From assembly GCA_036924085.1 (NCBI GenBank), contig JAVGWX010000011.1, positions 34,966,386 to 35,030,385 of the forward strand: a stretch of DNA of 64,000 nt, in the 5' to 3' direction. The notes below the pieces were generated by a model, which searched no databases, was not told the DNA's origin, and worked only from the letters and a program-made list of their open reading frames with translations. Below are positions 2,866 through 57,655 of this stretch, piece after piece. A program made the position numbers and the translations under genes. This DNA comes from Ariolimax columbianus (Eukaryota; Mollusca; Gastropoda; Stylommatophora; Arionidae). Position 1 is the first letter of the stretch. Each line of letters begins with the position of its first letter.

Positions 2866-2942
<77 letters not shown>
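2866..2942. repeat. (TA)n microsatellite, about 38 units
   Basis: An uninterrupted alternating TA tract directly after the end of the outer mariner remnant. Confidence 0.95.
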
Positions 2943-2947
<5 letters not shown>

Positions 2948-3258
2948 GTCAATAGTTCATGCAGCACAATATAATGGAACAATAACTATTACCTGTGGAC
3001 TCCAGACTGTGACATCATTGTCGTACTGATTTCTGAACTGAAATTTAATTTTTAAAGTATAAATGAACATTAATACATATCAATTAAATTGGTATTTATT
3101 ACAATTCAACTATTTCTGTTAATGTATATATAAATAAGAAGTTCAAATAGGCATTACACAATGCAAAAGTATATAGTGAAGCAGACATGGTGTCTGCTAT
3201 CTTCTGATAGCCAAAGTAAAAAATGAAATATTGGAAGGTATACAACATATGAACCATT
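2943..3258. other. AT-rich, nothing recognised
   Basis: No ORF, repeat family or RNA gene could be supported here. Confidence 0.5.
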
Positions 3259-3770
3259 CAATGTAGGATTCCTAATATTGAACATAGACAAAACAACTTG
3301 ATATCTGGTTTTGCTGGTGATTTAGCTCTTCTGTCCCATAACTACAATCAAATGCTCAAATGCAAAATAAAATAAATATTATTGATGATAGGTCTCAAAA
3401 ATTGTTACCTAGCATAAACAGAAAAAAAAAAACTAAGATTAGGAGAATAAATGCAGCTAATGACAATCAGATTGTGTTGTGAGACACTTCTACAAAATAT
3501 GGAATCATTCATATATCTTGGTAGCAATATATACAAAACAGGAGGTACAGATAAATATATCATAATAAGAATACAAAAGGCAAGAGGTACTAGTAATTAA
3601 TGCATTGGGAAACTCATGAATATCAACAGAAATTTAAGTCCAACACAAAACTGAAACTTCCAATGTAAAGTCTGTTCTATTGTATAGCTTTGAAACGGAG
3701 AACAAAAATAACAACCAGAATAGAGAGTTTAAAATGGTATTCTTCTTCTCTGTAAGCTTTCAGACAACTT
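3259..3770 (+). pseudogene. RTE-like LINE fragment (end of RT domain)
   Basis: Degenerate reading: a LLSHNYNQ-like stretch after the position of the FADD box, a KTKIRRINAAND block, then MESFIYLGSNIYKTGGTD and KARG. This order (ADD, LLSH, KTKxMRIN, YLGS, GGTD) is that of the RT palm/thumb of RTE-type non-LTR elements. It has many stops and lacks both ends. Confidence 0.6.
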
Positions 3771-3819
3771 GAATTTATCCAAAGAAATCAGCAGTCGACA
3801 TGAGGCTATTATTAAATAT

Positions 3820-4150
3820 CCACCACCCCACAGGAAAAGTACTGTTGGTGATGGCCATATCGGCATATGTGCTTTATTTGATCTTCGTATGTTAGAAACC
3901 TTCGTAGCAGATGTTAAGCAGTCACTCTATCAGTAATGCAGACACATTCATCAGTATGTTCTATCAATCCTTAGCTTGTTGAATAAATGGTACCACAAAC
4001 AATTGTGACCTTTGTGCAGTCAAAAGATGCCACCTGTTCATCTCTGCTGAGTTGGTAATATACGTCATTCAATTGATTGTTGACCAGGATACTTATGTTC
4101 CCACTTGTCTTGTTCCTGAATCTACACCATAAATGATAAGATCACTAACA
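3820..4150 (-). pseudogene. LINE-A-like 3' fragment (RNase H tail), old
   Basis: The - strand parallels 18,740-18,990 of LINE-A: the same run of TGGTGATGG, the zinc-motif region and the AATAGGTGGTACC-like stretch, but with much divergence. It marks an older insertion of the same clade. Confidence 0.5.
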
Positions 4151-8365: not shown

Positions 8366-11005
8366 ATGACAGTCGAGAGAAACGAAACTCAAAGATCTGA
8401 TGGTGAGGCCCTCAGACCAGGCAGATCATCGACGCCAACTGGGGAAGAGGCCAATTTCAGAGTCAGTACAAGTAATAGAGATGACGGCCTAAAGCCTGAC
8501 TGCATTACAGTGGACAACTCTGAAATGGGACTAAAAACAAAACTAAGAATAGGCACCTGGAATGTCAGGAGCCTATACCAGGGCAAGTTATTCATGATCG
8601 GAAGAGAAGTGAAGAGAACCAAGATAGAGATTCTTGGAGTCTCTGAGCATAGATGGGCCGGACAAGGGCACTGTACCAGCTCCTCAGGAGAAACATTTAT
8701 ATACTCTGGGACGGACAAGGGTGGAAAAAGCGGGGTCGGCTTTATTCTGTCAAAGAAGACAGCACCTTCACTACTGGGTTACAATCCAGTCAACGACCGC
8801 ATAATTGTAATCAGACTAAAGAAAAAGACTAGAGATTTAACAATAATTCAAGTGTATGCACCAACATCAGCAGCAGACGATTGTGAAATGGATGATTTTT
8901 ATAACACCTTGCAAGAAGCGATGGAAAAAGTTGAAAAAAGAGACATCTTGGTCATCATTGGAGATTTCAATGCGAAAGTCGGAGAGGAAAGAGCCGAAGA
9001 GGAGAGAAGTGTTCGAGGACCTTTTGGTTTGGGACACAGAAATGAGCGAGGAGAAAGACTGGTTGAATTCTGCACGGAAAACAACCTCTCCATTGCCAAC
9101 ACCTTCTTCAAACAACATCCACGAAGACTGTACACGTGGACCTCCCCGGATGGCAACAGCAGAAACCAAAAAGACTACATCCTAGTGCAACAAAGATGGA
9201 GATCAAATGTGCTGGCGACAAAAACACTGCCAGGAGCAGACTGCGATACGGACCACGAATTACTGTTTGCAGTTTTCCAAACAAGACTACGCGGGATCTA
9301 CAAAGGTTGCCAGCCAATACGCTTCGATGTATCAGCAATACCTACTGAATACAACATCAAAGTAGAAAACAAATTTGAGGCGTTGCTTGCTATACAGGAA
9401 GAGATGACATCTGAGGAGTTGACATCGTACACAAGGGAGATTTTGATCTCGACAGCAAAAGAAATGATTCCAAAGATATTGCACAAGACACAGAGTTATA
9501 TAACAGACGAAACACAGAAACTCATTGCAGAAAGGCAACAATTAAAACAAATGGGAAGTAAGGGGACCAACACAGCATATAAAAACTGCGCAAGAAAAGT
9601 TAGAAGAGAAATAAGAAAAGATAAAAGAAGATACATAGTAGAAACATGTAAGGATATAGAAAACCTACAACAACAAGGCAAAGAAAGAGATGCATTCAAA
9701 GCAATAAGAACACTGACAAGGGAATTCCGTCCGGTTCCACATGTCATAAATGACAAAGAGGATAACACACTAACAGAAACCAAAGACATACTGAATAGAT
9801 GGAGAGAGTACTGCAGAACCATGTATGGAGACAGCACAAAGCGCTCAGTTACAATCCTACCAAAGGATGAGAAAGAACCTGAACCAACATTGGAAGAAGT
9901 ACGCTCTGCAATTAAAAGCCTGAAAAAGGGAAAGTCCCCAGGATGCGATGATATCCCAGCAGAGCTAATACAAGCAGGAGGAGAGGCATGTGCTCGAGTC
10001 TACCACAAGCTGTGTAAACAGATATGGCACAGTGCAGAGTGGCCAGAAGCATGGAAGAAATCAATTTATATTCCCCTCCCCAAAAAAGGCAACCTGAAGC
10101 TGTGCACGAACTACCGAACTATCGCACTGATCAGCCATGATAGCAAGATACTCCTGCGAATCCTATTAAGAAGGATAGAGAAAAGGTTTGAATCTGAAAT
10201 TCACGTAGTCCAGGCAGGTTTTAGGAAAGACAGAGGGACCCGGGACCACATATTCAATTTAAGGAATATCTATGAAAAATGTAGAGAGTTTAATGTAGAC
10301 CTGTACACATGTTTCATTGATTACACTTAGGCCTTCGACACGGTAAAACATCAACATCTGTGGAGAATCATGAAGGAAATGGGGTTTCCTTTGCATATAG
10401 TCCATCTCATTGAAACATTATACCAAGATCAACAAGCCGCTGTCCGAGTATCTGGGCAAACATCAGATTGGTTTGCAGTACAAAAGGGAGTCCGACAGGG
10501 ATGTATACTCTGACCTTATCTGTACAACATATATGCGGAATGAATAATGAGAAATGTGCGAGAAGATGAGAACATTGAAAGTTTCAACCCATTTACGATT
10601 GGGGGGTACGAGATTCCAGAGTTACGATATGCAGATGACACAGTGATACTATCAAGAAGTGCGGAAGGGCTAGAGCAGCTACTTTCAGCCGTTAATGGAC
10701 ATAGTAAAGATCAAAATATGTTCATAAACATAAACAAAACAAAGATAATGACCACCGATAAAACACAATGTCAGCATACATTTACAGTGTGTGGTGAGGA
10801 AATAGATCAGGTTACACATTTTGAATATCTGGGCTCCAGAATCGACAAAAATGGTGACTGCTCGAAAGAAATCAGAAGAAGACTAGCTATGTCAATGCAG
10901 AGACTGAACAGCCTGAAGAAATTATGGCAGGGCACCAACAAAACGATAAAAGTAAAAGTCTTGAGAGCCTGTGTTTTTCCTGTGGCAGCTTATGGCTGTG
11001 AAGCA
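8366..11005 (+). pseudogene. RTE-like endonuclease/reverse transcriptase ORF (5' part)
   Basis: The ORF encodes the enzyme that nicks target DNA and copies element RNA there. The apurinic-like endonuclease (about residues 58-310) shows GTWNVRSL, SEHRW, YAPTSAADD, GDFNAKVG, NQKDYILV and DTDH. The RT domain (about residues 490-820) shows LPKKGNLKLCTNYR, CFIDYT, GVRQGCIL and YADDTVIL. The frame from 8,366 carries three in-frame stops between 10,328 and 10,546 (where K, S and W would be expected) and is then cut at 11,005 by the CR1 insertion within AAYGCEA. No RNase H is seen. The coding part resumes at 13,901. The ATG at 8,366 follows the element's 5' UTR. Non-functional. Confidence 0.85.
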
Positions 11006-13807
11006 AAAAGCAAAAAGAGGAAAACCAACAACATTACAAACTAAAATGTTTTTATGCAAATGTGAGAAGCATAGTAAATAAAAGAGAAGAATTGGAACTG
11101 TATGTAGAAGAAGAAAAACCAGATATAATAGGGTTAACAGAATCATGGACATATGAGGAGATTGCAGATAGTGAACTTGAAATTGAGGGATATACAATGT
11201 TAAGGAAAGATAGGATAATTGGAGACAAGACTAAGGGAGGTGGCGTTTTATTATACTGTATAAATTCTGTTAATATAACTATCAAAGATTATTTATCATG
11301 TGGTAACAAAAATGAAAGTGTATGGGGAGAAATAGAAAGTGGGGGTGAAAAAACAGTGATTGGAGTGTGCTATAGATGTCCATCAAGTCAAAAAGAGGAA
11401 GATAAGGAGCTGATTAGTAGTATAGCAAAAGCAAGTAAAGGGAAATTATTATTAATGGGAGATTTCAACTATCCAGAAATAAAATGGGATATGGCAGAAG
11501 CACTTGTAGAGTCAAAACCTTTTGTTACGTGCATAACGGACAATTTTTTAATTCAACATGTAGAAGCAGCCACCAGAGGCAAAAACATACTCGACCTAGT
11601 TTTTACCACAGAGGAAAATATGATTGAAAACGTTACCGTTGGGGAACTGTTTGGCTCAAGTGACCATCAAATCATCCGTTGGGATCTTATTGCAGGGAAA
11701 GAAGTAAACATAAACACGCGAACATACGACTACTCTAAGGCAGATGTTAAGAGAATGAAAGAGGCAGCGAACCACATAATCTGGAAAGATATTATTGTAG
11801 GAACAGATGTTGAACAGGAGTGGGAAAGTTTTAAAACAGTTCTAGAAACGCTAAAAGAGGAATGTGTTCCATGTAGGGAGGTAAACCCCAAGCGTAAAAA
11901 GTGGATAACTAGATTTGTAGTGAAATGTAGAAGAGCAAAAAATAAAGCATGGCAAAAATATATAGAGGCAGGTAAATCAAAAGAAACATATGTAAAATAT
12001 TTGGACAAGCAGAACATATCTCAGAAAGCGAATAAAACAGCAAAAATAGACTTTGAAAAAAAACTTGCTCAGAGGATCAAGACTGACAGTAAAAGCTTCT
12101 TTTCTTATGTTAGAAATAAACAAAGAACGAAAGACAAAGTAGGCCCTCTCATAGACAGTACAGGGAAAATAATAAGTGAGAATAGGGAGGCTGCTAATCT
12201 GCTCAATCAGTACTTTGGCACAGTCTTCACAAAGGAGGACTGCTCCGAGATCCCAGAGCCTATAGATATTTTTCAAAGAGACATGGATACAGCGGGATTA
12301 AGATCAATCTGTATTACAGAGGAAATGGTTTTTAAAAAATTGGAGGGGTTGAAAGTGAATAAATGTCCAGGTCAAGATGGTATTCACCCAAAATTGCTGT
12401 ATGAAATTAGAAACCAACTAGCAAAACCATTGGCTATATTATGTTCTCAATCACTTACAAAAGGGATTGTTCCACGGGATTGGAAAGATGCAGGAGTGAT
12501 CCCCTTATTAAAAAAAGGCAAAAAAATAAGATCCGGCAAATTATAGACCGGTGAGTTTAACGAGCATAGTCTGTAAATTGTTAGAGTCAATAATCAAAGA
12601 AAACATTGTAATGCATTTAGACAAATTTAATCTAATTAGAAATAGTCAGCATGGGTTTACTAGAGGGAGATCATGCTTAACAAATCTATTAGAATTCATG
12701 GAGGAGGTTACTAAAATCATAGATAAAGGGGAGCCAGTGGATGTTATTTATCTAGACTTTGCAAAGGCCTTTGATAGAGTACCTCATCAAAGATTATTTC
12801 GAAAGTTAAAATCACATGGAATAGGTGGCGAAGTTGCCAAATGGATTGAAAATTGGTTAACGGGAAGAAGGCAGAGGGTGGGCATAAATAAGGAGTACTC
12901 TGAGTGGAGTGAAGTGAAAAGTGGTGTGCCACAGGGCTCGGTTTTGGGACCAATTTTGTTCTTGATATATATAAATGATTTGGACATTGATATGAGATCA
13001 ATGATTGCAAAATTTGCTGATGACACAAAACTATGCAGTAGTGTCTCATCTAAAGCGGAAGTGGATATATTGATGTCGGATTTAGATAAAATTCGAGAAT
13101 GGTCTGTAAGCTGGCAAATGGAGTTTAATGTAGATAAATGTACAGTCATCCACATGGGTAGATCCAATATGGAACATAATTACAGAATGGGAGAAAACAA
13201 TATTAGAAAGATAGATAAGGAAAGGGACCTAGGGGTTATAATAGATCATACAGGAAAGGTGAGTGAGCAAGTTAAGGTAGCAGTGAAAAAGGCAAATGCA
13301 ATGTTAGGAATGATAAAAAGAAATATTAAACATAGGAGCAAGGAAGTGATCGTCAAACTGTATAAAGCTTTAGTTAGACCTAGATTGGAGTACTGTGTAC
13401 AGGTGTGGAGTCCTTATCATAGAGGGGACATAAACATGCTAGAAAGAATACAAAAAAGAGCGACAAAGATGATAGTGGGATTCCAGAATTACAGTTATGA
13501 GGAACGACTCAGAAAAGCCGGCCTACAGTGTCTCGAAGAGAGAAGAATTCGTGGTGACTTAATACAGGTTTATAAGATGATCAGAGGAATCGATAAATTA
13601 GACTATAACAAGTTTTTTAAAATACAGCCACCTACAATAACACGAGGGCATAGCTACAAGCTGATTAAAGAGAGGTCCAGGTTAGATATTAGGAAATATT
13701 TTTTTAGTCAGAGAGTGGTATCTGCTTGGAATGCATTGCCAGGGGAGGTAGTGGAGGCAGGGACAGTTAATGCATTTAAGAATAAACTGGATGCGCATAG
13801 ATTTTAG
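11006..13807 (+). pseudogene. CR1-like ORF2, endonuclease and RT, one frameshift
   Basis: The endonuclease part gives YANVRSIVNKR, IIGLTESW, YRCPSSQ, GDFNYPEIKW, LDLVFT and SSDHQIIRW. The RT part gives NKCPGQDGIHP, VIYLDFAKAFDRVPHQ, SGVPQGSVLGPILF, FADDTKLC and, at the C-terminus, RPRLEYCVQVWSPY and VVSAWNALPGEVVEAGTVN. The two large frames (11,062-12,546 and 12,551-13,807) are separated by a single indel in an A-run near 12,525. Compared with the copy at 41,988-44,910, this ORF has far fewer lesions, so the insertion is the younger of the two. No RNase H is present. Confidence 0.9.
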
Positions 13808-16087: not shown

Positions 16088-19000
16088 GTATCCTTTCCCA
16101 GTTTCAAAGCCGTCTAGTCTTGTTTTATTTAAAAACTATGGCGTAGTCTGTAGTAAAGTAGTAGTAGTAGTTAGTGTACTGTAACTGTACTACTCATAAC
16201 TCAGTAGTAACTACTGTAACTGTAGTGGCGTAATGACTGAGTAATGTGTTTATTATTTATAATAATAATAGTTTATTTGTTAATTATATTTCTTTACAGC
16301 TGATAGTGATAATTTAGAATTGTGGACAGGTAATCCGGGTAAATCCCTCTATCACTTTGCTTAGGTGTTGAAATAATCATATTTATTTCTAGAATCTGTA
16401 CATATGTTATTGTGTACAGTACAACTATCACACTATCAGAATCAATCAAGAGTTCAAAATATTGTTTACACTTCTTGACTTACCGATTGATAAGTTGTTT
16501 TTAGCTTTTCATAATGTGATAAATGAAACATAGAGCACAATTTCAGAAGCTACAAGAAATAGTATCATACTTTATAGTGACATTTAGTTTATAACTTGCA
16601 CGACTTTGTGTTTGTCTTTTGGGGCCTGTTCTATTTATGGACAACAATGATTAATGTCATTTTACGATTGTCAGGTACTTTCGTTTTTTTCTGTAATGTA
16701 CATTACACAATAAGGAAGACAGAAGTCTATTGAATTAATAATACAATCAAGAGAAAGGTAAGTGGAGGTCATTATTATGTCATTACTGGAGCACAACTTT
16801 AGTTTTATCTTATGTTATATATTTTAAAAAATTGTGTTAAGGGTGGCTATGGCCACATACAATTTTGTGAAAATATGAGAGAACAGCTGATCCATAATTG
16901 GTTGTGAAATTAGTTTCCTTAATTCCTGCTTGAAAACCTTTTCAATTTAAAGTTTGCTGCAAAAGATCTTGAGCGACAAGCAAAAAGATCAGAAAAATCT
17001 GAGAAAGAGGAGAAAGTCAAGTTAAAAAAGGTAACTAAGAAACATGTCAGACCTTTTCCTGAGGTTTTTCTGTATTCTTCTCTTTTTTTCTTTCCATTTC
17101 TAATTCATTTAATAGTTTACAATCAAAGACATGCATGGGGAACACAGGCCAGGTGATGGAATTGAGTAGATGGAGTCAGCAACAGCAGAATGAACGAAGC
17201 CAGAACAGCTTTTACCACCTTAAACAACATTGCTGGATAGCCGCTGCTCTTATGGAGAGACTGACTGACTGTCTCTCAGTTAGTTGGAGGGGACATAGTG
17301 ACTGCTGACACTCGTAGAGGCTTTCTGGCTTGAGAGAAAAGAGAAAGACTGAAGAGATCAAGGAACACCCTGGCAAACCAGCCTTCTCAGCATGGTTGTA
17401 TAATCTGTGGTAGGGACTGTCACTCGTGGATCAGCCTTTACAGCCATAGCAGACAGTGTCGAAATACAGGAGACAGAGTTGGACAAAACACTGGGTGCCA
17501 TGCGCATGGTCTATAGTAGAGACTGAGGCGCCAATGATAAATGGAGAGAACAGTTGCACTACACTTGGGATCTTTGACATCAGAGCCGATGTGAATATGC
17601 CCTGGACTGCCGCAAGGCTGTCCAGTCTCACCGGTGCTATTCAACATCTACATAATAAAGGTGGCCAACATTCAACTCACAGGGCCAGCACTAACATTTG
17701 CGATGGCATTCTCATGTACATCACTGGGTCAGATAGGCAAGAGATGGTCCAAGACATCCAGGAGACCTTGTAGGCAATGGTCAAGCTGGGGTTCAGGGCA
17801 AGGAAAAAGAAGATATCCTGCTTGGCAAACACTAATTTACTGAGAGAGACTAAGCACCTATCGGTATGCCCAGAGGGCAGTGAAATTGATTTTTAGGAAC
17901 AGAGCAGAAAGAAAGATTGTGCATGGGACTGCAAGTAAAATAGTGTGTGACAGGTTTGGTACAGACTTCCTACAAGGAGGCTAACTACTGTCAAAGCCCA
18001 ATGTTCCTAATTAAAGAAAAAATTAATAATTTTGCGTGAATTGATTTGTTTTGTTCTCTATATTTCAATAATGTTTCTTTTCATCAAAAACTACTTCAGG
18101 CAATTCAAAAAGGAAATGTGGAAGGGGCTAAAATCCATGCAGAAAATTCAATCAGACAGAAAAATCAAGCCTTGAACTACAGAAGAATGAGTGCCCGAAT
18201 TGATGCGGTTGCTTCCCGTGTTCAAACAGCGGTCACAACACGCCAGGTCACAAATTCTATGGCAGGAGTTGTAAAGTCTATGGAGTCTGCCATGAAATCT
18301 ATGAATCTGGAAAAGGTATTTTCTTGAACATGCCAAATATGTTATTGTAGCTAATTTCTAGTTAACCCTTTACTGTCAGGCCTAGTTCATTATATTTGTG
18401 TCTTAATGTCTTAACCTTTTACTGTCAGGCCTAGTTCATTATATTTGTGTCTTAACACTTTACTGTCAGACCTAGTTCATTATAATCATGTCTAAACCCT
18501 TTACTGTCAGGCCTAGTTCATTATATTTGTGTCTTAATGTCTTAGCCTTTTACAATCAAGCCTAGTTCATGAGCAGATAGCGATTTATAGCTTGCATCAG
18601 GGTCAGCAAACCAGAGCTGACCAAAACCGTATTCCACATTCTTCTTCTTCTTACGCTGTCAGACGTCAACCTTTATTTTTTCGAAAAAAGCAGCGGTCAT
18701 CCTGAGGCTGTCGACACTGCCATAGAGCTTGTCTAGTGTTGCCACTGGTGATGGTCACATCTGCTTTCTCTGATCCTCATAGGTCGGGCAGTTTTGCAGC
18801 AAATGTTCAGCGGTCATTTTCCCGATACCACACGAGCATTCGTCAGTGCCACCTATCTTCATTTTGTTGAATAGGTGGTACCTCAGTCTATTGTGGCCAG
18901 TGCGAAGTCTGAAGACCACGACCTGCTCTCTTCTGTTCAACTGGTAATAGGCATCGTTTTTTGTGTAGCCAGTATGTTCTGTTTCCCATTTGGTCATGTA

Positions 19001-22000
19001 TCTAGCTCTAATAAGCCTTTTTGACTCTTCGTATGTCACACTAGTATCTGGTTGTGGTAGTTTTGCACCTTCTTTTGCCAGTCTGTCTGCCTCCTCGTTG
19101 CTCTGGATGTTACAGTGGGATGGAACCCACTGTACCACTACTCTTTTTGGTGCGGACTGCTGGCATAGTTGACAGAGTACTGCTCTTAAATCATTAAGTT
19201 CAGTACTTTTCTGGCTTTTTAGTGCTGTGACTACGGCCAGTGTATCTGTGAGCAGGACTATATGGCTTTCATTCCTTTTACCTGTCAGCATTTCTTCTAC
19301 TGCAGCCCTCAGTGCCTCTGCCTCCGCTCTGAAATTGCTTGTGTATTTTCCAGTAGCCACTGACAGTGTTATTTTTCTGCCATTTGGTAGGCTCAGGAAT
19401 ATCCCTGCCCCTCCGTTCTGTGTTGTATTTGTTAAAGAACCGTCGGTGTATGCATGGGTCCAGTCCATGCTTGGGTAGTTTTCCATTATGTAGCTCAGGG
19501 TTGTATCTCTTCTTTCTTTTTCAGTCTGGCTGTTTTTGTTTCCAATACCTGGTATATTTTCTTCCACCTCTGGAAATATATGCTACCTCTAGGTAGGTTT
19601 TCGTACAGTAGGGATGGGCTTTGGTGTTGTTAGTGCGTTCATAGGGTCTTCGTTCATCTTTGCTTTGGCTATTTCTGCAAAGTTTCTCCGCTTTAGTTTC
19701 TCATTTCCAAAATTTTTTAGTCTCTGATGCATTGGATGGTCAGTCAGTCTTCTGAGTTTCTCTGCTTGCTGCTGGGCTCTGTAGTCTCTTCTGTGGGTCA
19801 TGGATTGCAGTTTTGTAATCTTTTCAAGTTCTACAATTGACGTTGACTTCATGCCTCCTGTTATAACTCTCATGGCTTGGTTTTGAAGTTTGCTAATTTT
19901 ATCGGAGTTCGCCTTTGGTGCTGTTGTCCATGCCGCAATGCCATAGTCGAGAACTGGTCTCACTCTTCCAGTGTACAGTTTCTTTAGTATACTTTCGTCT
20001 GCTCCCCAGTTTGTGCCAGCAAGTTTCCTCATGATTGCCATTCTTTCTCTGGCTCTCTTTCGGTTTCTCTCGATCTGACTTTTCCATGTCATACGCCGGT
20101 CAAATGTGACTCCCAGGTAGCTTGGGTTGTTGATTGGCCACAGGTATTTGCCGTTAAGACTTATTTTGGTGTTTTGGGGTTTGTTTGAAAGCGAGAATAT
20201 CGTACATGTTGTTTTTTCCTCATTTATTTTGACCAGCCATGAGTTCACCCACTCTTCAAGCGATATTAGGGCCTGCTGCAACCGATTACTTGCTATGGTG
20301 AGATTCTTTTCAGAGGTCCACATAGCCAGATCGTCTGCAAACATTGAGCTGTGGATTCTTTTTGGTACATTCTCTGTGATGTTGTTTATATACACCAGGA
20401 AGAGTGTGAGTTACAGTACTTCCCCTTGGGGTACTCCCTGCTGAAGTGTCACCTTTTTGCTCATCTGCCCTTGTACTTGGACTCTGGCCGTTCTGTTTTT
20501 GAGGTAGTGGCTGATCCATTTGTACATTTTCCCACAAACTTCACTTCTTCGTAGCTTGACTTTAAGTCCTTCTTTCCAGACTTTGTCAAATGCCTTTTCT
20601 AGATCCACCCAGACCGCTACTGTGTGTTTTTGCTCCTGGTAGGCATCCTCTATTTCCTGGGCTATGAGGGTGATATGATCCTCAGTGGATCTGTGCTGTC
20701 TAAAGACTGCTTGCTGTGGAATTAGTATGTGTTTTTGTTCCAGATGCCACATCAGTCTGGTGTTTATCATACGTTCCATCAGTTTGCCTACACAGCTCAG
20801 TAGACTGATAGGCCTGTATCCATTTGGATCTGTTTTATCTTTTCCTTTCTTTGGTAATGGTACAAGTACTGCATCTTTCCATGCCTGAGGTACAATACCC
20901 CTTTTCCAGCTTTGGTTCAGTACTGATAATAACTTCCTCTTTGCTGTTTGGCCCATCCCCATCAGCATCTCGTTTGTTACTCCATCTTTTCCGGTTGATT
21001 TCTTTTTCTTTAAAGTTCTCATGGCCTCTTCCATTTCATTCATTGTTAGTTTTTACATCATGTGCTCTTCTGGTACCATATTGATGTTGTCGTGCCCATT
21101 TTGTTCTTCCCTAATGTCTGTATGCCTATCTGCAGGGACATCGATGTGGTTAGCTCTGGCATAATGTTCAACAAAGGCGTTTGCTGCTTTTTTTCCAGTG
21201 AGCATGTTGTCACCCTGCTTGATGGTAATTTGTTTGTTTGATGGAGTTTCGTCATTCATGGCTCTGACTAACTTCCATAGTTAATTCCCATCTTTATCTA
21301 AATTGAGGCTTTCTGTTTTGTTTTTCCAACTTTCTCTTGTTATTTGGTTTAGAGTGTATTTGTATTTCACTGTGGTGGCTTTGAGGGCGATATTTGCCTC
21401 CATAGATTGTTCTCTCTCTGCCATGTTCCTAGCATTTGAGACTTCGTCTTCCGCTTTCTGCAATTCATCATTCCAATAAGGCTTGTAGTTTTTCCTTGCC
21501 CCTCTTGGGATGGTTTCAGTGGCAGCTTGCATTATTGCTTTGCTTAGGCTTTCCACCATGGGCTTCATATTGGTATTCCGTGTGTTGATGGTTTCACACA
21601 GCCCTTCTGTCAGGATTGCAAATCTGTCCCAGTCGGCTCGTTTGTAATTCTAACGTGGGAGCGGTTTTATTTCCTGTGATTTTATTTCCCTACTTCCATA
21701 TCAACTTCTAGCCTAATTGGCCTGTGGTCGCTACCTGCCAATTGGTTTAGCACCTGGCGGTCTATTTTGTGGTGAATATCCACAGTGGAAAAGGCCAAGT
21801 CTGGAGTAGAGGTGGTATGCCATGTTCTAGAATAGAAGCTAGGACTATCCTCCGGCCTATTGATAAGGCAGAGATTTGTGTCTCCCAATCTTCCACTTCA
21901 TCACCTCTGCTGTCTGTGTCTGAGTATCCCCATCTCTCCGAGTGGCTGTTGAAGTCTCCAGCTACTATGCAGTTGGAGTCTTTGACTTCCATACTCGAGA

Positions 22001-25000
22001 GTGACAGGTCTTTGTTTGGTGGTCCGTACAGGTTGAAGATGCGGATCTTCGTCTCTTGAGCCATTATGTCAACTCCTACAATTTCTGCTTGTCCGGTGTG
22101 ACCGTGCTACTCGGTATGCAGTTACGGGTCAGTATCAGAACCCCTCCTTTGTGACCTTCTCTATCCAGACGGAAGGCCTGGTATCCTCTGATTGAGAATT
22201 TATGGTTGTTTTTGAGGTGCGTTTCCTGGATACATGCCACGTCAATCTTACCTTCATGCAAGTGATGTGTTAGGGAGAGCTTTTTGTTAATGACTCCCTC
22301 CGCGTTCCACTGTAGTATTCTGAGGGTCTTGTGTTTTTGGTCAATAGTTTTTGCCCCATCACCATGTGCCTCGACTCCACAGCACATGGGTGGGTGACCA
22401 CCAGCAGCAATGGTTGGGCCCCTTCGAGGCGTGAGGCCCGACACTCTTGCTGCCTGGCGGTACTCCACAGGATGAGCGCCATGCTTTTTTCTATTAGGTT
22501 GTACAGTCATTATACAGCGATATACGTTGCACTGTGTTACTTGTTAAGCCTGTGGCCCAGTGCATCCGATTTCAACAGGCGTTTCTGTAGGGATGCTCTC
22601 CTTAGCCTTTGGCTGTCCCCAGCCTATCTGCAAGGCAGCAGTTGTTTGTGATCAGAGTTGTCTCTCTTATGGAAGTTGTCTTACAGGACTATCGAGTCTT
22701 CACCACTCGTGTCTATAGGGTGCGGTGATGATATATGATATGGACTATGTACTGGTTTGTACTATACCGGAAGAGAGGCAGTCCAGTGTGTCTGTATCCC
22801 AGGATCGTCACGTCCTGCCAGAAACGTAGCATGTGCATGTGAGGGATATCTCTTTGCTCCCTTTATTTTCTCGGCTTTTCTGCAGTGATGGTACGCCTAG
22901 CATTTCCCGCCACCTGGGAGATTGTCACAATAGGGCAGAGGTGCAATGTCTGCTGGCCTGCATCTCTTCTGCGTCCATTGGGATGACTGATAGCAGACAG
23001 ATGTAGAGAGCGAGGCAGGAATGCATTTAACCAGGGGACAAGCCTGGTAATGGCGCGGAGATGTTGTTCACCTGGTGTGCGGACATATCTCATGATCAAG
23101 GGTTGCGTCTCAACAGTTCGCAGTGAGGTGGCTGCTCTACTGCTTGCGACACCCCGACCGAGAACTAAGTCTTCTACTAGTGGTTTCACACCTCATCGCC
23201 GTATGGAGTGACTATCGGGCAGCTTCCCGCCCGCTTTGATCAGCGTGCGGCATATACCTCTTTCTGCGGCTCAACCGGGTCGGGCCCCAGGTCCCAACCA
23301 TATTGTAGCCTCCCATCACAGTGGTGCTGAGATTTTGGGCGGGATTCCGGCTTAGAGGCGTTCGGCCGTAATTCCTCAGATTGTAGCCTCGCACCTATGG
23401 CTCATCAGCCAAGCACGTGAACCAAGTGTCTGCGACTTGCGGTCCCTCTCAAGTTGAGCAGGATTACCGTAGCAACGCCCTGTCATTAGTAGGGTAAAAC
23501 TGACCTGTCTTCCGCGGGTCTAATACCAGCACCCGTTCACTATTAGACCCAACGAATCAATAGAGGGCTTTTTAGACAGTCAATTGCCATGTGTCTGAAA
23601 CCTGCGGTTCCGCTAGGGTTAAACAGGATTACTGTAGCAACTCTCTTTCATTAAGAGGGTAGGACTGACCTGTCTTCCATGGGTCTAATTCCAGCACACG
23701 TTCCCTATTAGACCCAACGAAAATGCTCTCAGTCTGTCAGTCTTTTTACAGTGTTGGCGTGTTGAGTCAAATTAAGCTGCAGGCTCCACTCATGGCAGGA
23801 TCAACCAGATATCTGTCGGAGACGTACGAACCACACACACCGGTCGGCGATGGAAGGAAGGATGGATGTGTAAAAAGCCTCACTAGGACGGCCTCAGGGA
23901 CCGACTGACGGACGGACGGTTGTTCCGTCCCTCACTCCGTCAACCTAGGACCGCCTGACAGGGGCTCGTACACACACCAACCGACCGGTCTCGCTCGGGG
24001 AGGGATGGCAGCGCTCTGTGCAGAACGGATCCCAACGACCCCGGCAATTATTTTCACTGGAACTGGAGACGATTTTTGCCTGCCGGCCTGCCCTTCTCCG
24101 ACGGGTTGGTCGGGCGAGGACAGGGCCTTTAGGCACGATTCCTGCTTTCTATTTGTAGGTCAAAAGCTCTTTGCGAGAGAATGACCACCAGCGAGACAAA
24201 CTGTCGAGATAGGCTATACGCCTTCTCATAACCATAACGGACTGACATAGCTTCTCGATACGGACCACAGTAACGCACCGTTTCCAGCGGTACGACTCCA
24301 CAAAATTGGTCCCGCTACAGTGCCGGGGAAAGGCGGGTGAGCGTGTTAGGCAGGCCCGCGCTCTCACTCCGCCTGGCGGGACTGAGATCGCTGTACGAAT
24401 ACTGGATGAGAGTCAATCGCGCCAGCGAGAGACCAGCCCCAATTCAAGTGGAAGCTGCTGCACTATTGAACTCTGGATTTGAGGATAGGGATTGCAGTGG
24501 GAAGCTAAATCTCCAAAAATCTAGTTGAAACCAGATGTGTCAGGACAAAAGATGCAGATATAGCAGCTTTGCTGCAAAATATGGCACAGCATCACAATGT
24601 CCTCTTCAGGATGAACGCAGAAGGAGATTAAGGATAACAAACAAGATACATTTTCTTAACAGGGAGTCCACCATCTGCACCAGTGAGCAGTAGTACAATC
24701 TTCTTGACATATAGTGAAATAACGTCCTTGTAAAAACTCTTGTTTCACGAATGAATGTCTCTATTTGTCTGTCTCAATTTTATAGACTCATTTTAGCTCC
24801 ACCTAAATCAAGATGGCGGTAGTTAGTAGATCTACTCTTCCTTCCTGGTTGACTGGTCTGCTGTCAATCTTACTTAGCTACTCCCCTTTTTGAATCCTGT
24901 TGACTCCTATGACTACTTGTCACTCTAAATGTGACAGGATGACGTACGGTTAATTGTTGCCTAACTCCTCCACCCGTACTCTGAACTCCATATACTACAT

Positions 25001-27461
25001 CCAAAATGGCCAGATTAATGCCCCATTTCACCACATACACACCATTTTTTAGTTCATCATTTTTCACGACAAGCTGATTTTGCTAGCTGGAGGACATGAG
25101 GCGAACTCTAACTGACCCGTGCCAGCTGAATGTCCCAACTACTTTTAGTTACAGAGAATCAGCTGCTGTCTCTAATCCCTATGTTTTCCTGAACGGTGGT
25201 CCTGTTACATACTGCACCATGACACATAGCCCTGTTACACTTTTGTTCATTCAGTACTTTAGAGATGACCCCCCCCATCTTAACATTTGTGATGTAGAAT
25301 GGAGAAAGCACATGTGAACACCACCAGTATCATTCCTGGATAAGCGGAGATGCTTAGCAGTGCATGAGCTGCAGTGGTCAGAGAACCAGAGCTGCCAAGT
25401 CCCTTCTACACCTCCATGCAGTGATCCTAGATAACAGGCTGCAACAGAGCAGACCGGCTAAGGAGACGTCATCGAAAAGGGAAGGCTAACCTGGCACTAA
25501 AAAATGCCTACTGAAGTCAGATGTGTCGCAATGAAAGGTGCAAATATCGCAGTCAAGCTGTGAATTATGACACACCACATTCCAATGTCCAGACAACTTC
25601 CTGTTACTTGCAAGGCCTTTTTCAGGGTTTGGTAGCGGGAGATTGAGAACGAACGAAGTAGAAATATAATTTCTGGACTAGCTAATTGAAGATCAAAATA
25701 ATTACAAACTGACTGCTACTTTCTTTAGATATATTGAAAGTTGACATCTGAAAGCATTAGAACCAGATGGAGAAGACAGTATTTCAGCTGCATTCCTGAT
25801 CTAATGGCTTTTTGTCTGATTTCTGAACTTGCTCTGTAGATTTCTCAACTAATGGACCGGTTTGAACAACAGTTTGAGAATCTAGACGTACAGTCCCAGG
25901 TGATGGAGAACACAATGATGAACTCATCAACACTTACAACACCACAGAACCAAGTTGATGCTCTCATGCAAGAGATTGCAGATGAGGCTGGGTAAATAAT
26001 TTTATCTAAATTTTTTATCATACTGTTAATTCCGGTGTGTCCTTTGTTTGTTGTTTATCCACAGTAATTTGAATAACTGATCGAATCACGTCAGGGTTGA
26101 AATCCCAAACGAGCCCTAATATTTGGTTCCATTTCATTTTTTGTTTAAAATTGTAATCAATACTTTCAATTCTATTATCATCATGAAGCATGTCCTTTGC
26201 AAAACGTTGCTCTTATTACAGCTGATTTGTAAGCCACTTGATCACTGGCCAGCTTGCCTGTCTCCGTTACTGTCAACCCCCAAAACCTCTGTAATGTCCT
26301 TTGTCCATCTTATCCTTGACCGTGTTTCCATCCATGGTTGACCATGTTTCCATCAATGGTTGACCATGTTTCCATCTATGGTTGACCGTGCAAGTTCTCA
26401 GGATTTTTATTTTGGTAATTTTGTTAGTGTTCTGTCAGACATTTTTCAGTTGACATGTCCTCTGTAGCAACCATGGTCATTCTTCTCCTTATTCTTGTTT
26501 GGCAATCTTCGTTGTTGCTTACAGTTTAGTTGAGATATTCTTCTTCTTCTGCGTACGCAGTCAGACAGTAACCATTATTTTTTCGAAAAAAGCGGCGGTC
26601 ATCCTGAGGCTGTCGCCACTGCCATAGAGCTTGTCTTGCAGTTCCACTGGTAATGGCCACATCTGCTCTCTCTGATCCTCGTATGTCGGGCAGTTCTGCA
26701 GCAGATGTTCAGCGGTCATTTTACCAGTACCGCACGGGCATTCGAGATGTTGTTCGCCTGGTGTGCGGACAGCTCTCATGGTCATTGGTTGAGTCTCGAC
26801 AGTTCACAGTGAGGTGGCTGCTCTACTGTTTTCGACACCCCGACCAGGTACTAAGTCTTTAGTTGGTGGTTTCGCACCCCATCGTCGTATAAGGTGAGTA
26901 TCAAGCAGTTGATCGGCGGACGGCAAGGACCTCTTGCTGCGGCTCTACCGGATATGGCTGGGGCGCACGCCCCAGGTCCCGAGCATGTAGGAGCCTCCCA
27001 TTGCAGTGGTGCTGAGATTTTGGGCGGGATTGCGGCTTACAAGGGTTCGGCCGTATTCCCCCACATGGTAGCCTCGCGCCATTGGCTTATCAGCCTGGTA
27101 CGTGAACCAAAGTGTCTGCGGCTCCTCTCGATATGAGCTGGTTTTCCGTAGCAACGCCCTGTCATTAGTAGGGTAAAACTGACCTGTCTTCAGATGGTCT
27201 ATTTCCAGCACCCATTCACTATTTGGTCAGACGAATTTATTGAGGGCTTTTGTTTGTCAATGACCAGGTATTTGAAATCTGCGGTTTCTGCGGGGTTAAA
27301 CACGATTTCCGTAGCGTTCTTTCATTAGAGTGTTTGAGAGCTGACTTGTCTTCCGTGAGTCTAATACCAGCGTACGTTCATTTTTAGACTCAAACGGTAG
27401 TGCTCTCGATTTGTCAGTCGTTCTACAGTATTGGCGTGTTCAGTCAAATAAAGCCGCAGGT

Positions 27462-27497
<36 letters not shown>

Positions 27498-27852
27498 GCG
27501 AGACAGTCAAGTTACTTAGAGGGTGGCCCCAGATTTTCGAGGGTCTAATTCCAGCACATGTTCACTATTAGACCCCACGAAGGTGCTCTTTTTTTGACCG
27601 TCATTCTACAGTATTGGCGTGTTAAGTTAATTTAAGCCTCAGGCTCCACTCCTGATAGTGCTCTTCCGTCAATTCCTTTGTCAGAACACTCGATGCAAAC
27701 CAACCGAGCCACAGGGGGCATAACCCCAGATTTCTGAGGGTCTAAATCCAGCACCAGTTCCATATTAGACACCAGAAAAGTGGTCTCGGCATGTCAATCA
27801 TTTCAGTGTTGGCCGTGTTGAGTCAAATTAAGCCGCAGGCTCCACTCCTGGG

Positions 27853-27885
<33 letters not shown>

Positions 27886-30800
27886 TTTGCAACCATACTT
27901 CCCCCGGAACCCAAACACTTTGGTTTCCCGGAAGCTGCCCGCAAAGTCATCGAAGCAACTCCTGCGGATTGCTAGTCGGCATCGTTTATGGTCAGAACTA
28001 CGACGGTATCTGATCGTCTTCGCGCCTCTGACTTTCGTTCTTGATTAATGAAAACATTCTTGACAAATGCTTTCGCAGTAGCTCGTCTTGCGGCGATCCA
28101 AGAATTTCACCTCTAACGCCGCAATACGAATGCCCCCGTTTGTCCCTGTTAATCATTACCTCCAGTTCCGAAAACCAACAAAATAGAACCGAGGTCCTAT
28201 TCCATTATTCCATGCACCATTATTCAGGCAGCCGAGGCCTGCTTTGAACACTCTAATTTTTTCAAAGTAAACGCGCCGGCCACCCAGGACGCTCAGCGAA
28301 GAGCACCCGTGGGAGAGAGCCGGCAGACGGTAGGGCAGGAGACAACGGGCAGTGAACCGGCGCGAGCCGGACCGCCCGCCTGCGCCTGAGATCCAACTAC
28401 GAGCTTTTAACTGCAACAACTTTAATATACGCTATTGGAGCTGGAATTACCGCGGCTGCTGGCACCAGACTTGCCCTCCAATAGATCCTCGTTAAAGGGT
28501 TTAAAGTGTACTCATTCCAATTACGGGGCCTCGAAAGAGTCCCGTATTGTTATTTTTCGTCACTACCTCCCCGTGCCGGGAGTGGGTAAGTTGCGCGCCT
28601 GCTGCCTTCCTTGGATGTGGTAGCCGTTTCTCATGCTTCCTCTCCGGAATCGAACCCTGATTCCCCGTTACCCGTTACAAACATGGTAGGCATGTCACGT
28701 ACCATCGACATTTGATAGGGCAGACATTTGAAAGATGCGTCGCCGGCACATGAGGCCATGCGATCAGCACAAAGTTATCCAGAGTCACCAGTGGGGACGC
28801 CGCAACCCCGCGAGGGGAAACGACGATTGGTTTTGAACTAATAAAAGCGCTCTTTCCGCGAGGGTCGGAGCTTGGTAAGCATGTATTAGCTCTAGAATTG
28901 CCACAGTTATCCAAGTAGGATCGTGTCATCTAAGGAACCTCGACTGATTTAATGAGCCAATCGCGGTTTCACCGTGAGACAGTGTGAACTTAGACATGCA
29001 TGGCTTAATCTTTGAGACAAGCATATGACTACTGGCAGGATCAACCAGATATCTGTCGGAGACGTACGTACAGCACACACCGGTCGGCGGAGGAAGGGTG
29101 TGTAAAAAGCCTCACTGGGACGACGGCCGCAGGGACCGACTGACGGGACGGACGGACGGTTGTTCCACCCGTCCCTCACTCCGTCGACCTAGGACCGCCT
29201 GACAGGGGCCTCCCACACGCACCAGACGACCGACCGACCGGGCTCGCTCGAGGAGGAATGGCAGCGCTCTGTGCAGAACGGATCCCAACGACCTCGGCGA
29301 TGAATTTCACTGGGACTAGAGACAATATGGCCTGCCGGCCTGCCCTTCTCCGTAGGAGAACGCAGGGCGTCGAGGCAACGATTCCTGCTTTCCATTTGCC
29401 GGTCACAAGCTCTTTGCGAGAGTCGGACCACCAGCGAGACGTACTGTCGAGCTCTGCTATAAGCCTTAGATAAATCACCACAGACGGACCACGTTTCCTG
29501 ATACGGACCAGACGAGCGCACCTCGGTGGAGGAGCCGCTACAACAAACCGCACCCAATTCGCTCTACGGGGAAAGGGAGGCGAGCGTTTTCCGCAAGCCC
29601 GCGCTATCGCTCCGCCTGGCGGGACTGAGATCGCTTTACGAACACTGGTTGAAATTGAGTCGCTGCGGCGAGACAACTACCCCAGATAGTTGAGATATTC
29701 AAAACGCATGATGTTCAGTAATTGTTTGCGTCTCTATAACTTTAGGTCTGATTTTCACCATGTCAGTGCTTATTGTCTTAGTCTTGTCGGTGTTTATGAG
29801 TAGATTTTGCTCTTTGTTGTGTCGTTTTACAGACAGGATCATCTATTCTAGCCCTCGGATGCCTAGGCGGTCATGCGATGTAAAAAGTCAAGGAATCAGA
29901 TTCCTAGGACGTCCAAAAGTACATTGGGAAGAAAACATACGACAGTCCCTAAGTGACAAGAGGGCCAAATTGGAAAGAGGCCAGGTGAAAGACTCCGGAT
30001 AGAACAGTATGGTGTTTTCTCTGGCAAACTTCTACACCTCACGGTAGAAGTGGAGCGGCTAAGTAAGAAAGTAGTTTGAATCAGCATCAATTTAATTAAT
30101 TCAGCAGTCATTTCCTTTGATTTACTCTTTTCCAATTGACAACATAAAAACTATTGGTACTTGTACCCATTTCAGATTGGAGTTGAATTTGGATTTGCCA
30201 TCAGCTCAGGGATCTGCCATTGGAGCCACTGCATCAACACATGCATCACAAGAGCAGGTAGGATGATTTTACTGTTGTCCCAGGGAAGAAAGACTAACGT
30301 CTGGGTGTCCCGGAGAAGAAAGAAAAATGTCTGGTCAAGCACAACATACTATTCAGACATGTTAGCCAGGGTCAGGCAAAATGTACTGGCCAAGATACTT
30401 TCCTTGACCTCTTTGTAGTCTTGTAGTCGGATGCACTGGGCCGACAGGCACAAAATAAAAACCGCAGTGCAACCTTGAAAAATGGAGAAATAAAGCGAAC
30501 GAAAAAAAAAGAAACAGAATCTACTGGAATGGCTTTGTTCGAAATGCAAAGGTCGCCACAAAGACAAAACTCCCTCCTGTCTGGAAAAATTGGATCTCTG
30601 GCACCTCTGCCTATTTGGCAATGTTGTTCGCCTGGCTCAGGATGTCCCAGCCTATCAGATTCTCCACAAATCTGTCCTCTGTATCAACAACCACCCACCA
30701 GCTTGTTAGAGGAGCACGAGAGGACACCCTCACACATAATGGCTTCAACAGTTGGCCTACTCTCTCTCAGCTTTAGATGGGATTTGACAATGGGCCTCCA

Positions 30801-47867: not shown

Positions 47868-48125
47868 TGAATGAACTGACAGCAACTCATAGTTGACTGT
47901 GTGCATCAGGATCAGCAGACCAGAGCCGACTAAGACCCTATTCCGCCTCCAAGCAACAAACCTGTAAACAGGCTACACTAATGTAGTCTGGCTAAGATAC
48001 TAGGAATTACAGTGGGAAGGTAAACCCAGTACTAAAAATGTCAGCTGAAACTGGATGTGTCGGGCCAAGAGGCACAAATGTTGCAGCCTTGCTGTAAACT
48101 ATGACATAGCTTCTTTTCAGGATGA
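47868..48125 (+). mobile_element. SINE family S1, full-length
   Basis: ATCAGGATCAGCAGACCAGA, CCCTATTCCGCCTCCAAGC, GGGAAGGTAAACCCAGTAC, core CTGGATGTGTCGGGCCAAGA, TTGCTGTAAACTATGACATA and a TTTTCAGGATGAA end. Confidence 0.8.
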
Positions 48126-54429: not shown

Positions 54430-55200
54430 ACATCTAATTGGGCCAAGAAATTACTAACTCCCATGACTTGCATAAAGAGATCTCTCGAAGGTTAGCTGTG
54501 GTGTGGATCAGCTTCAACCGCATCAAGACAGTACTTCAACAGATGAAAAACAACAAAGTGAGAGCTCACACCTTCAACAGCCTGATCATTCCCGCCATGG
54601 TGTATGATTGCGAGGTGTGGAACTTACAAAAAAGTGACATGGCATGGCTCCAAGTTACTTAACGAGTGATGAAGCGTAGAACACTGTCATTTTCAATATG
54701 AGACCGCATACCACCATGGGGAGTAAAACCTGCTTCAATCAGATAGGTGGTACCGACGAATGCCCGTGCGGTACTGGTAAAATGACCGCTGAACATCTGC
54801 TGCAGAACTGCCCGACATATGAGGATCAGAGAGAGCAGATGTGGCCATCACCAGTGGAACTGCAAGACAAGCTCTATGGCAGCGGCGACAGCCTCAGGAT
54901 GACCGAAAAAATAATTGTTACTGTCTGACTGCGTACGAAGAAGAAGAAGAAGAAACCTGCTTCAATCACATTGCAGATATGGTGTTGTTAAGAAAGTACA
55001 GGTGTCAGGCCACGTGGTAAGCATGCCTGACAATAGATGGACACGTAAAGTGACGTCATGGTGGCCCTACACTTATCGTCACCCCAGACGTCCACCAATG
55101 AGATGGAGAGATGGCCTTCGACAGGACCGTAGTCCGGCATGATACTTAACGGCAAAGGACAGAGATGAGTTTAGATGACATTTGACTACCTGGCATAGAG
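54430..55200 (+). pseudogene. RTE-type LINE 3' fragment carrying a nested LINE-A end
   Basis: Before the nest: LHKEISRRLAVVWISFNRIK and SLIIPAMVYDCEVWNLQKSD (the RT-thumb to C-terminal boundary). After it: VQVSGHVVSMPDNRWTRKVT and HPRRPPMRWRDGL. Together this is the usual order RRxxxxW ... YGCExW ... GHVxRMxDxRW ... GRPPxRWxD. Confidence 0.7.
54742..54952 (+). mobile_element. LINE-A 3' end, 5'-truncated, with 16-bp TSD
   Basis: AAACCTGCTTCAATCA flanks it at 54,726-54,741 and 54,953-54,968. The insert reads [20 protein letters not shown] and [20 protein letters not shown], then GAAGAAGAAGAAG. It shows LINE-A machinery was active on 5'-truncated products too. Confidence 0.95.
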
Positions 55201-55505
55201 CACAAAATGTGCCTGAGTGAACACCAGAATTACAGTAACAGGTCGCACTAGTAGATTTCGAGGCCTTCCTAGCAATACCTGGCTAAAACAGATGGCCACC
55301 TCCCCAACAGAACTGCAGGCCGTCTAGGACACGACCATCAGACATGGTCACTCGACGTGAAGGGCCATGGCCTTAGCGTACTATTGATTTATTGACTAAC
55401 AGATGCTTTGTACCAAATTTCAGCTCTGTAGTGTGACCTGTTAATTCCTTACAGTCAAACCTAATTTTCAAGATGGTAGTCTTAATTTCCAATACAAGAA
55501 CAGTT
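55201..55505. other. Unassigned
   Basis: No recognised feature. Confidence 0.35.
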
Positions 55506-55755
55506 TTTTTTTGTACGTTCGCCTTATTTTCTCTATTCCCTAAGCCGGTGTGCGTTGCACTGCAGTTTTTATTTTGCGCCTGTTGGCCTAGTGCATCTGA
55601 CTTCGGCATGCATTTTATGTAAGGGTTTGTTTCCTCCTGCATTTTCTAAGGGCTTACTTCCCTGGGGAAACGGCTGGTGCTGTGATGGGGATCGAACCCA
55701 GCACCTTTGAGATGTGAGCCGTGTCACTTAACCACTAGCCCATGCTGTCCCCTAC
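55506..55755 (-). mobile_element. SINE family S3, full-length with tRNA-like head
   Basis: On the - strand: GGGGACAGCATGGGCTAGTG and GTTAAGTGAC (A-box region), GCTGGGTTCGATCCCCATC (B box), AAGTCAGATGCACTAGGCC and a GTGCAACGCACACC tail. Confidence 0.8.
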
Positions 55756-57029: not shown

Positions 57030-57540
57030 GAGCAGAAACTTGGAGAATGACAAGGGCAACACAGAGGACATTTCAGCCGTACATGAATAATTGTCTTTTG
57101 AGGATAATGGGTATAGGTTGGCAAGATATTGTCACTGGAGCTACGGAGTTCATGCTTTGTGCGATGCTCTCGACAGATGAGGTACCCATCTGTCGAGAGA
57201 GACCAAGCTAAAATGGGGAAAAAAACCAGAGGCAATGAAGTCGAGCCCCCGCTTAAAGTTAAAGATATTGTCAGGAATGAAGACCTGTTGGAAAAGAGCT
57301 AATAGCAACCAGTGGAGTAATAAATCAAACATAGAAAATGGGGTTGGACAGGACACACAAGGAAAGCACCATCAAATGTGGCCAGACATGCCCTGACATG
57401 GAATTCACGGGGTAGAGGAAGAGAGGTATACCAAGAAACACCTGGCGAAGAGACTCTGAAAATTATCTGGAAAGAGGCAGAAACATCAATTTCAGACCAA
57501 ACTTGCTGGAAGAAGGTTGTCAATGGCATATTTTTTTATG
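57030..57540 (+). pseudogene. LINE C-terminal fragment
   Basis: One frame gives FQPYMNNCLLRIMGIGWQDI; another gives KWGWTGHTRKAPSNVARHAL and TWNSRGRGR, matching the RRWxWIGHTLRKPxxNIxRQALTWNxQG motif of invertebrate LINEs. Confidence 0.65.
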
Positions 57541-57655
57541 GCGTTCTTCTTATTTCTCTATTTCCCAAGGTGGTGTGCGTTGCACTGTGGTGTTTATTTT
57601 GCGCCTGTCGGCCCAGTGCATCCGACTTCAGCATGCATTTTATGTAAGGGTCTGC
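57540..57655 (-). mobile_element. SINE family S3, 3' half
   Basis: Reverse orientation: TATTTCTCTATTTCCCAAGG, TGTGCGTTGCACTGTGG, TTATTTTGCGCCTGTCGGCC, CAGTGCATCCGACTTCAGC. Confidence 0.75.

Follow-up and report, generated by a model that had tools for sequence, protein, structure and literature searches.

Description

The stretch analysed here ("the window") comprises 64,000 nucleotides of the Ariolimax columbianus genome (assembly GCA_036924085.1, contig JAVGWX010000011.1, positions 34,966,386 to 35,030,385, forward strand) and contains, on the minus strand at 18,638-24,440, a long interspersed nuclear element (LINE) that has ribosomal RNA (rRNA) gene sequence as its 5' leader. This element, copy 1, belongs to a dispersed LINE family with the same leader. 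Rfam, local alignment and Pfam confirm in copy 1 the architecture given in a preliminary description of the window's sequence: a part resembling an external transcribed spacer (ETS), an 18S fusion, a pair of 28S pieces and a LINE leader. Downstream of the leader lie endonuclease (EN), reverse transcriptase (RT) and RNase H domains. The parts, with the repeat into which copy 1 is inserted, are as follows.

24,441-24,625, minus strand: upstream half of an S1 repeat split by copy 1 (alignment to an S1 copy)
23,812-24,440, minus strand: presumed 5' ETS, 629 bp, beginning at the family 5' end (adjoins the 18S start, aligns to copy 2, present in dispersed copies)
23,796-23,811, minus strand: first 18S bases, CTGGTTGATCCTGCCA, then a deletion to 18S ~1170 (read directly; ten other copies have 18S 1-~1169 in one alignment)
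23,750-23,795, minus strand: 18S 1170-1215, to which the 18S start is fused (local alignment)
23,566-23,711, minus strand: first 28S piece, model 2940-3086 (local alignment)
23,085-23,546, minus strand: second 28S piece, running to the 28S 3' end, model 2940-3399 (local alignment, model 2940-3143 at 23,342-23,546; Rfam, model 3005-3399 at 23,085-23,481, E 1.5e-27)
22,511-23,057, minus strand: LINE leader not derived from ribosomal DNA (rDNA)
18,659-22,510, minus strand: EN-RT-RNase H coding region, broken (Pfam PF14529/PF03372, PF00078, PF00075; longer open stretches in another copy, L009)
18,639-18,650, minus strand: 3' tail GAAGAAGAAGAA, (GAA)n (read directly)
18,545-18,637, minus strand: downstream half of the S1 repeat (alignment to an S1 copy)

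The open reading frame of copy 1 is interrupted by stops and frameshifts. Its 28S pieces match the Rfam consensus at 68-73% identity in local alignment, which is no gauge of decay because that consensus covers all eukaryotes. The 18S fusion is present in copy 1 as described, but it is a private deletion seen in no other copy read; a different deletion takes out 18S in L023. When joined, the two flanks of copy 1 align once (208-405, junction 360; 71%) to an S1 repeat at 47,902-48,113, in agreement with the earlier view that copy 1 had split an S1 repeat, and an exact target duplication of at least 6 bp, looked for in these flanks, was not found. As to a hepatitis delta virus-like ribozyme at the 5' end, no ribozyme match was returned over the window or in 22,900-24,500. 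A segment of the LINE leader (22,525-22,584) resembles a ~100-bp repeat found at 30,422-30,513, 33,026-33,129, 55,504-55,602 and 57,531-57,640, and repeats of ~75-95 bp (18,362-18,570) adjoin the 3' flank of copy 1.

A dispersed family

Searches were run against the 2.29-Gb assembly in which the window lies. For the leader, 40 of 8,371 first-look candidates were scored, yielding 62 match pieces; for the 28S/LINE junction, 40 of 3,450 were scored. The junction is spanned at all 40 scored places, copy 1 included, at 95-100% identity on 19 contigs; it thus recurs in many dispersed copies, as a family predicts, and is not the single occurrence that would have refuted the preliminary description. 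The loci opened here and below were picked by leader or 5.8S similarity, and their counts do not give the share of copies with the leader. All of the 20 fetched by leader similarity (L009-L028) have a 28S part that continues into the LINE leader, and the ETS start was read in 13 (14 copies; a further one at the edge of L012 was left out). The full-length plan, of ~7 kb, consists of ETS (~630 bp), 18S 1-~1,200, 18S/28S composites, 28S (~510 bp), leader (~550 bp), EN-RT-RNase H and (GAA)n.

Of the 16 copies read, 13 begin with ATCTGGGG; L027 has one mismatch, and L026 and copy 1 diverge more. Exact target duplications of 12-15 bp flank six of the ten copies with both ends read (copy 2 of the window, L013, L014, L015, L022 and L028), those of L013 and L015 being less sure because their flanks are repetitive; the other four (copy 1, L009, L016 and the 3'-truncated L018) have no exact duplication. 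A common start beside differing target duplications makes an RNA beginning at that base the likely template. At the scale of the family, the shared plan, 5' end and junction support the earlier proposals that rDNA and LINE entered together and that the rDNA serves as the element's own 5' leader.

The copies also have the marks of a LINE: target duplications of variable sequence, (GAA)n tails and, in the window, a third copy that is 5' truncated. Ratios of non-synonymous to synonymous differences per site (pN/pS) of 0.20-0.39 for the EN domain, obtained in five of five copies against the majority sequence of subfamily A (below), point to purifying selection on the EN coding region. None of eight copies scanned has a fully open frame; L009 has an open stretch of 1,099 codons, and four of the eight have open stretches of at least 155 codons in the ETS region. 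Named relatives of the RNase H are from Littorina, Nucella, Batillaria, Bradybaena and Mytilus, and viral contigs gave no relative when searched with the RNase H protein and with one word each from 28S and ETS.

Chance resemblance to rRNA is rejected on Rfam E-values of 1.5e-27 and 6e-281, and the independent insertions with target duplications tell against both chance and an assembly artefact. An rDNA-specific element of the R1/R2 type is rejected because the copies are dispersed and their flanks unlike, and an rRNA-derived short interspersed nuclear element (SINE) because copies are ~7 kb long and have coding sequence.

Copy 2 and subfamily divergence

A second copy of the leader, missed in the preliminary description, lies at 26,541-29,686 on the minus strand within a perfect 14-bp target duplication. 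Its order is ETS, 18S to ~1208, three composite repeats of 18S and 28S sequence, and the 28S 3' end, which runs straight into the final ~205 bp of the LINE.

29,687-29,700, minus strand: target duplication GAATATCTCAACTA, 5' copy (flank comparison)
26,541-29,686, minus strand: copy 2, an internally deleted element with the subfamily B leader fused straight to the LINE 3' end (Rfam and alignments)
29,049-29,686, minus strand: presumed 5' ETS, B type (alignment)
27,813-29,048, minus strand: 18S 1-~1208, nearly intact (Rfam, model 4-1116, 935 bits; alignment)
27,341-27,768, minus strand: tandem 18S(1145-1215)/28S(2940-2986) composite repeats (alignment)
26,770-27,223, minus strand: 28S, model 2942 towards the 28S 3' end (alignment)
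26,541-26,744, minus strand: LINE 3' end, 87% to copy 1 (alignment)
26,527-26,540, minus strand: target duplication GAATATCTCAACTA, 3' copy (flank comparison)

With its 5' and 3' ends joined by an internal deletion (junction 26,744) and its 14-bp duplication, copy 2 has the structure of a short internally deleted element (SIDE).

Subfamily B consists of copy 2 and the inner element of L010, and A2 of two copies. At L010:767-9901 the B-type element is nested in an A-type element, giving the relative age of those two copies. Between A1 and B, 18S differs at 2 of 1161 sites, ETS at 103 of 604 (17%) and 28S at 63 of 482 (13%); with one copy standing for B, the LINE leader/untranslated region (UTR) differs at 56 of 532 (~11%) and EN at 66 of 829. 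The EN proportion of synonymous differences (pS) is 0.19 for the A majority against the B copy, and the contrast of 18S with ETS has a Fisher p of 6e-48, with sites treated as independent. Both 18S differences fall inside a 122-base V4-like stretch (2/122), with zero in the remaining sites. This stretch is where host 18S also changes first, and such a placement fits renewal and selection alike. Individual A copies deviate from the 18S majority by 1.0-3.1% in 12 of 13 100-column bins and by 6.0% in the V4-like bin (5.7% in the V4-like stretch, 2.5% elsewhere in 18S), so that copies decay after insertion while the source sequence stays nearly fixed.

The ETS follows a course of its own. Its A/B divergence is lower in the 3' part (14/226 in the last 226 columns versus 89/384 in the first 384). 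A1 and A2 differ at 19 of 603 ETS sites but at 1 of 2827 in 18S, 28S, UTR and EN combined, and the ETS therefore moves separately from the rest of the element. In L028 an A-type ETS is combined with B-like UTR and EN; together with the A1/A2 difference, this mosaic indicates that the 5' module has been exchanged, and 18S is the likely crossing zone.

Pre-rRNA chimeras

The 5.8S gene is outside the common leader. In a 5.8S search, 40 of 53,434 first-look candidates were scored, all on contigs C1-C23, and pre-rRNA-derived sequence seems widely scattered in the genome. Twenty of the 40 matches were opened (L029-L048), and all 20 have pieces of the element within the same 3.1 kb, L031 and L032 looking like one duplicated locus; as a result, the native rDNA array may be missing from the assembly. 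Internal transcribed spacer 1 (ITS1), 5.8S and ITS2, in some loci with the 28S 5' end, are joined to element pieces at varied points, from which it appears that the element's RT has copied pre-rRNA. L044 with L049 runs from 18S 834 to ITS2 in native order and adjoins an inverted LINE 3' end, and L046 with L050 runs from 18S 486 to ITS2 (18S gapped), followed by the 28S 3' part, the LINE leader and EN. In L034 (B-type ETS) and L040 (A-type), the element's exact 5' end, ATCTGGGG, meets ITS2 at one and the same position, which is what a jump of the enzyme from the 5' end of one RNA onto another would give. CAGGCTG or TGGCTG stands before ATCTGGGG in these two loci, and the ITS2 position could correspond to the 3' terminus of a pre-5.8S intermediate.

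Proposed origin of the leader and upkeep of 18S

Judging from sequence comparison, these copies form a dispersed LINE family, and we consider it fairly probable that its rRNA-gene leader was acquired by template jumps onto pre-rRNA and that its 18S stays host-like through continued switches of template to host rRNA or sister elements. The element RNA would begin at the first base of the ETS, perhaps an RNA polymerase I (Pol I) start, and would be driven by a promoter within or beside the ETS; a captured Pol I-type start, raised in the preliminary description, is possible, most copies read sharing a base-exact 5' end. Reverse transcription would start at the (GAA)n tail and run via leader, 28S and 18S to the first ETS base, the enzyme switching template at the RNA end or in shared 18S sequence. 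One order that could have built the leader goes from the LINE 5' end to the 28S 3' end, then from 28S ~2940 to 18S ~1260 and onward to the 5' end of the pre-rRNA; the composite repeats would have arisen later. More tentatively, the element may be an autonomous retrotransposon living off the nucleolus, with a captured rRNA start, the 5' pre-rRNA as leader and an 18S renewed from host rRNA every round, in which case part of a selfish element would evolve at the ribosome's pace.

Several points weigh against acquisition by jumps and renewal by switching. Switching in 18S alone needs two crossings to leave the ETS unrefreshed, and purifying selection on 18S would give near-identity too. Within 18S, a single site (column 802) places the L028 breakpoint, the other diagnostic site (778) being homoplastic in L015, and the comparisons draw on two copies of subfamily B (one for UTR and EN) and two of A2. 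L039 and L044 have an inverted LINE piece next to the pre-rRNA piece, and the ITS2 junction common to L034 and L040 could be inherited from a shared ancestor and not reflect two jumps. A native rDNA unit was not found among the 20 opened of the 40 scored 5.8S matches; the ETS is consequently named for its place next to where 18S begins, and both a Pol I start at its first base and an 18S equal to the host's are hypothetical.

The main rival is selection on 18S, with the leader captured once and its 18S held by purifying selection since an 18S-like domain would be required in the element RNA, perhaps to keep it in the nucleolus, to bind ribosome factors or to allow cap-free translation. Two differences in 1,161 18S sites between subfamilies with far-diverged EN (pS 0.19) and ETS (17%) are in line with this, as is the confinement of both to the V4-like stretch, where relaxed constraint would place them. 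However, 2/122 in that stretch, against 10-17% in ETS, 28S and UTR, is little for dispensable sequence, and the A1/A2 ETS difference and the L028 mosaic are those of a recombining 5' module; we regard this explanation as unlikely. Read-through from a LINE downstream of 28S, also raised in the preliminary description, is a weaker rival and decidedly improbable. Here a LINE lying immediately 3' of an rDNA unit, itself partly deleted, would have been co-transcribed from the rDNA promoter, its transcripts seeding the family; possibly the source in the rDNA array is still active and its 18S homogenised with native units. The leader order ETS-18S-28S 3' end-LINE is indeed that of rDNA, the 5' end is single and base-exact, and the near-invariance of 18S suits homogenisation. 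The fit is nevertheless worse overall: the common leader is without the 18S 3' third, ITS1, 5.8S, ITS2 and most of 28S, the 28S is not homogenised between subfamilies (13%), and the separate chimeras join pre-rRNA to the element directly, at varied points. Finally, an only apparent family likeness among one-off LINE/rRNA chimeras, as in LINE-1, deserves almost no credence. Such chimeras are known for LINE-1 (PMC13174262), and 5.8S chimeras occur in the present genome, but one 28S/LINE junction recurs at every one of the 40 scored places and one 5' end is common to 13 of 16 copies, and on these shared features we reject this explanation.

Comparison with known elements

In the account of PMC13174262, LINE-1 forms chimeras with 28S, 5S and other RNAs (28S/LINE-1, n = 18, 83% sense), the RT joining LINE to cellular RNA as proposed here; those are individual insertions, whereas the Ariolimax leader, which also comprises ETS and 18S, has become fixed and is passed down within a family. 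The insertion sites of R1 and R2 are in 28S genes, and R2 relies on being co-transcribed (PMC3414825). R1 and R2 resemble the present family as rRNA-bound elements without long terminal repeats (non-LTR) that show template jumps, and in the R2 and R2-R1 SIDEs, as in copy 2, a 5' end is joined directly to a 3' end (PMC3414825); unlike R1 and R2, the Ariolimax element is found at dispersed places and has rDNA as part of its own sequence. A fish R2 lineage has likewise taken up a piece of an rRNA gene, described as 28S-derived sequence in the 3' UTR linked to a shift of insertion site (PMC5035012), while the leader described here exceeds 2 kb and is at the 5' end. The 5S- and 28S-derived SINEs mentioned in PMC13174262 also put an rRNA-derived head on a LINE-mobilised element, but are short and non-coding, whereas Ariolimax copies contain coding sequence for EN, RT and RNase H. 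Template switches fuse several transcripts in the Magnaporthe WEIRD/Mg-SINE/MGL chimeras, with 14-bp direct repeats in one tripartite case (PMC2104539); unlike the present family, these are separate retropseudogenes, and the abstract names no rRNA. Persaeus, a SIDE of the CR1 LINE Zenon, is like copy 2 an internally deleted LINE derivative, although its abstract names no rRNA-derived part (PMC6740152).

A word search of a gastropod non-LTR survey (PMC11203168) returned rRNA and 28S once each, in the reference list, and no 18S, and searches of open-access PubMed Central found no description of an ETS-18S-28S leader on a LINE. LINE/rRNA chimeras have so far been described as individual insertions. 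If the reading given here is correct, such chimeras can become a lasting, high-copy element family, and two questions become testable: by what route LINEs acquire new 5' ends and promoters, and whether nucleolar RNA is drawn on during LINE reverse transcription. Caution is also called for with 18S, 28S and 5.8S matches in such genomes, since these may be transposons, with consequences for the assembly of rDNA and for barcoding.

Other LINE and LINE-like sequences in the window

54,742-54,951, plus strand: third copy, 5' truncated and reduced to the LINE 3' end (alignment; AAACCTGCTTCAATCA read by eye in both flanks)

At 9,148-13,480 (plus strand), ~27-48% protein-level similarity to the LINE probably marks another, distant LINE, and 3,739-4,124 (minus strand), 63% identical to the 3' end of the LINE, is probably from a related LINE family.

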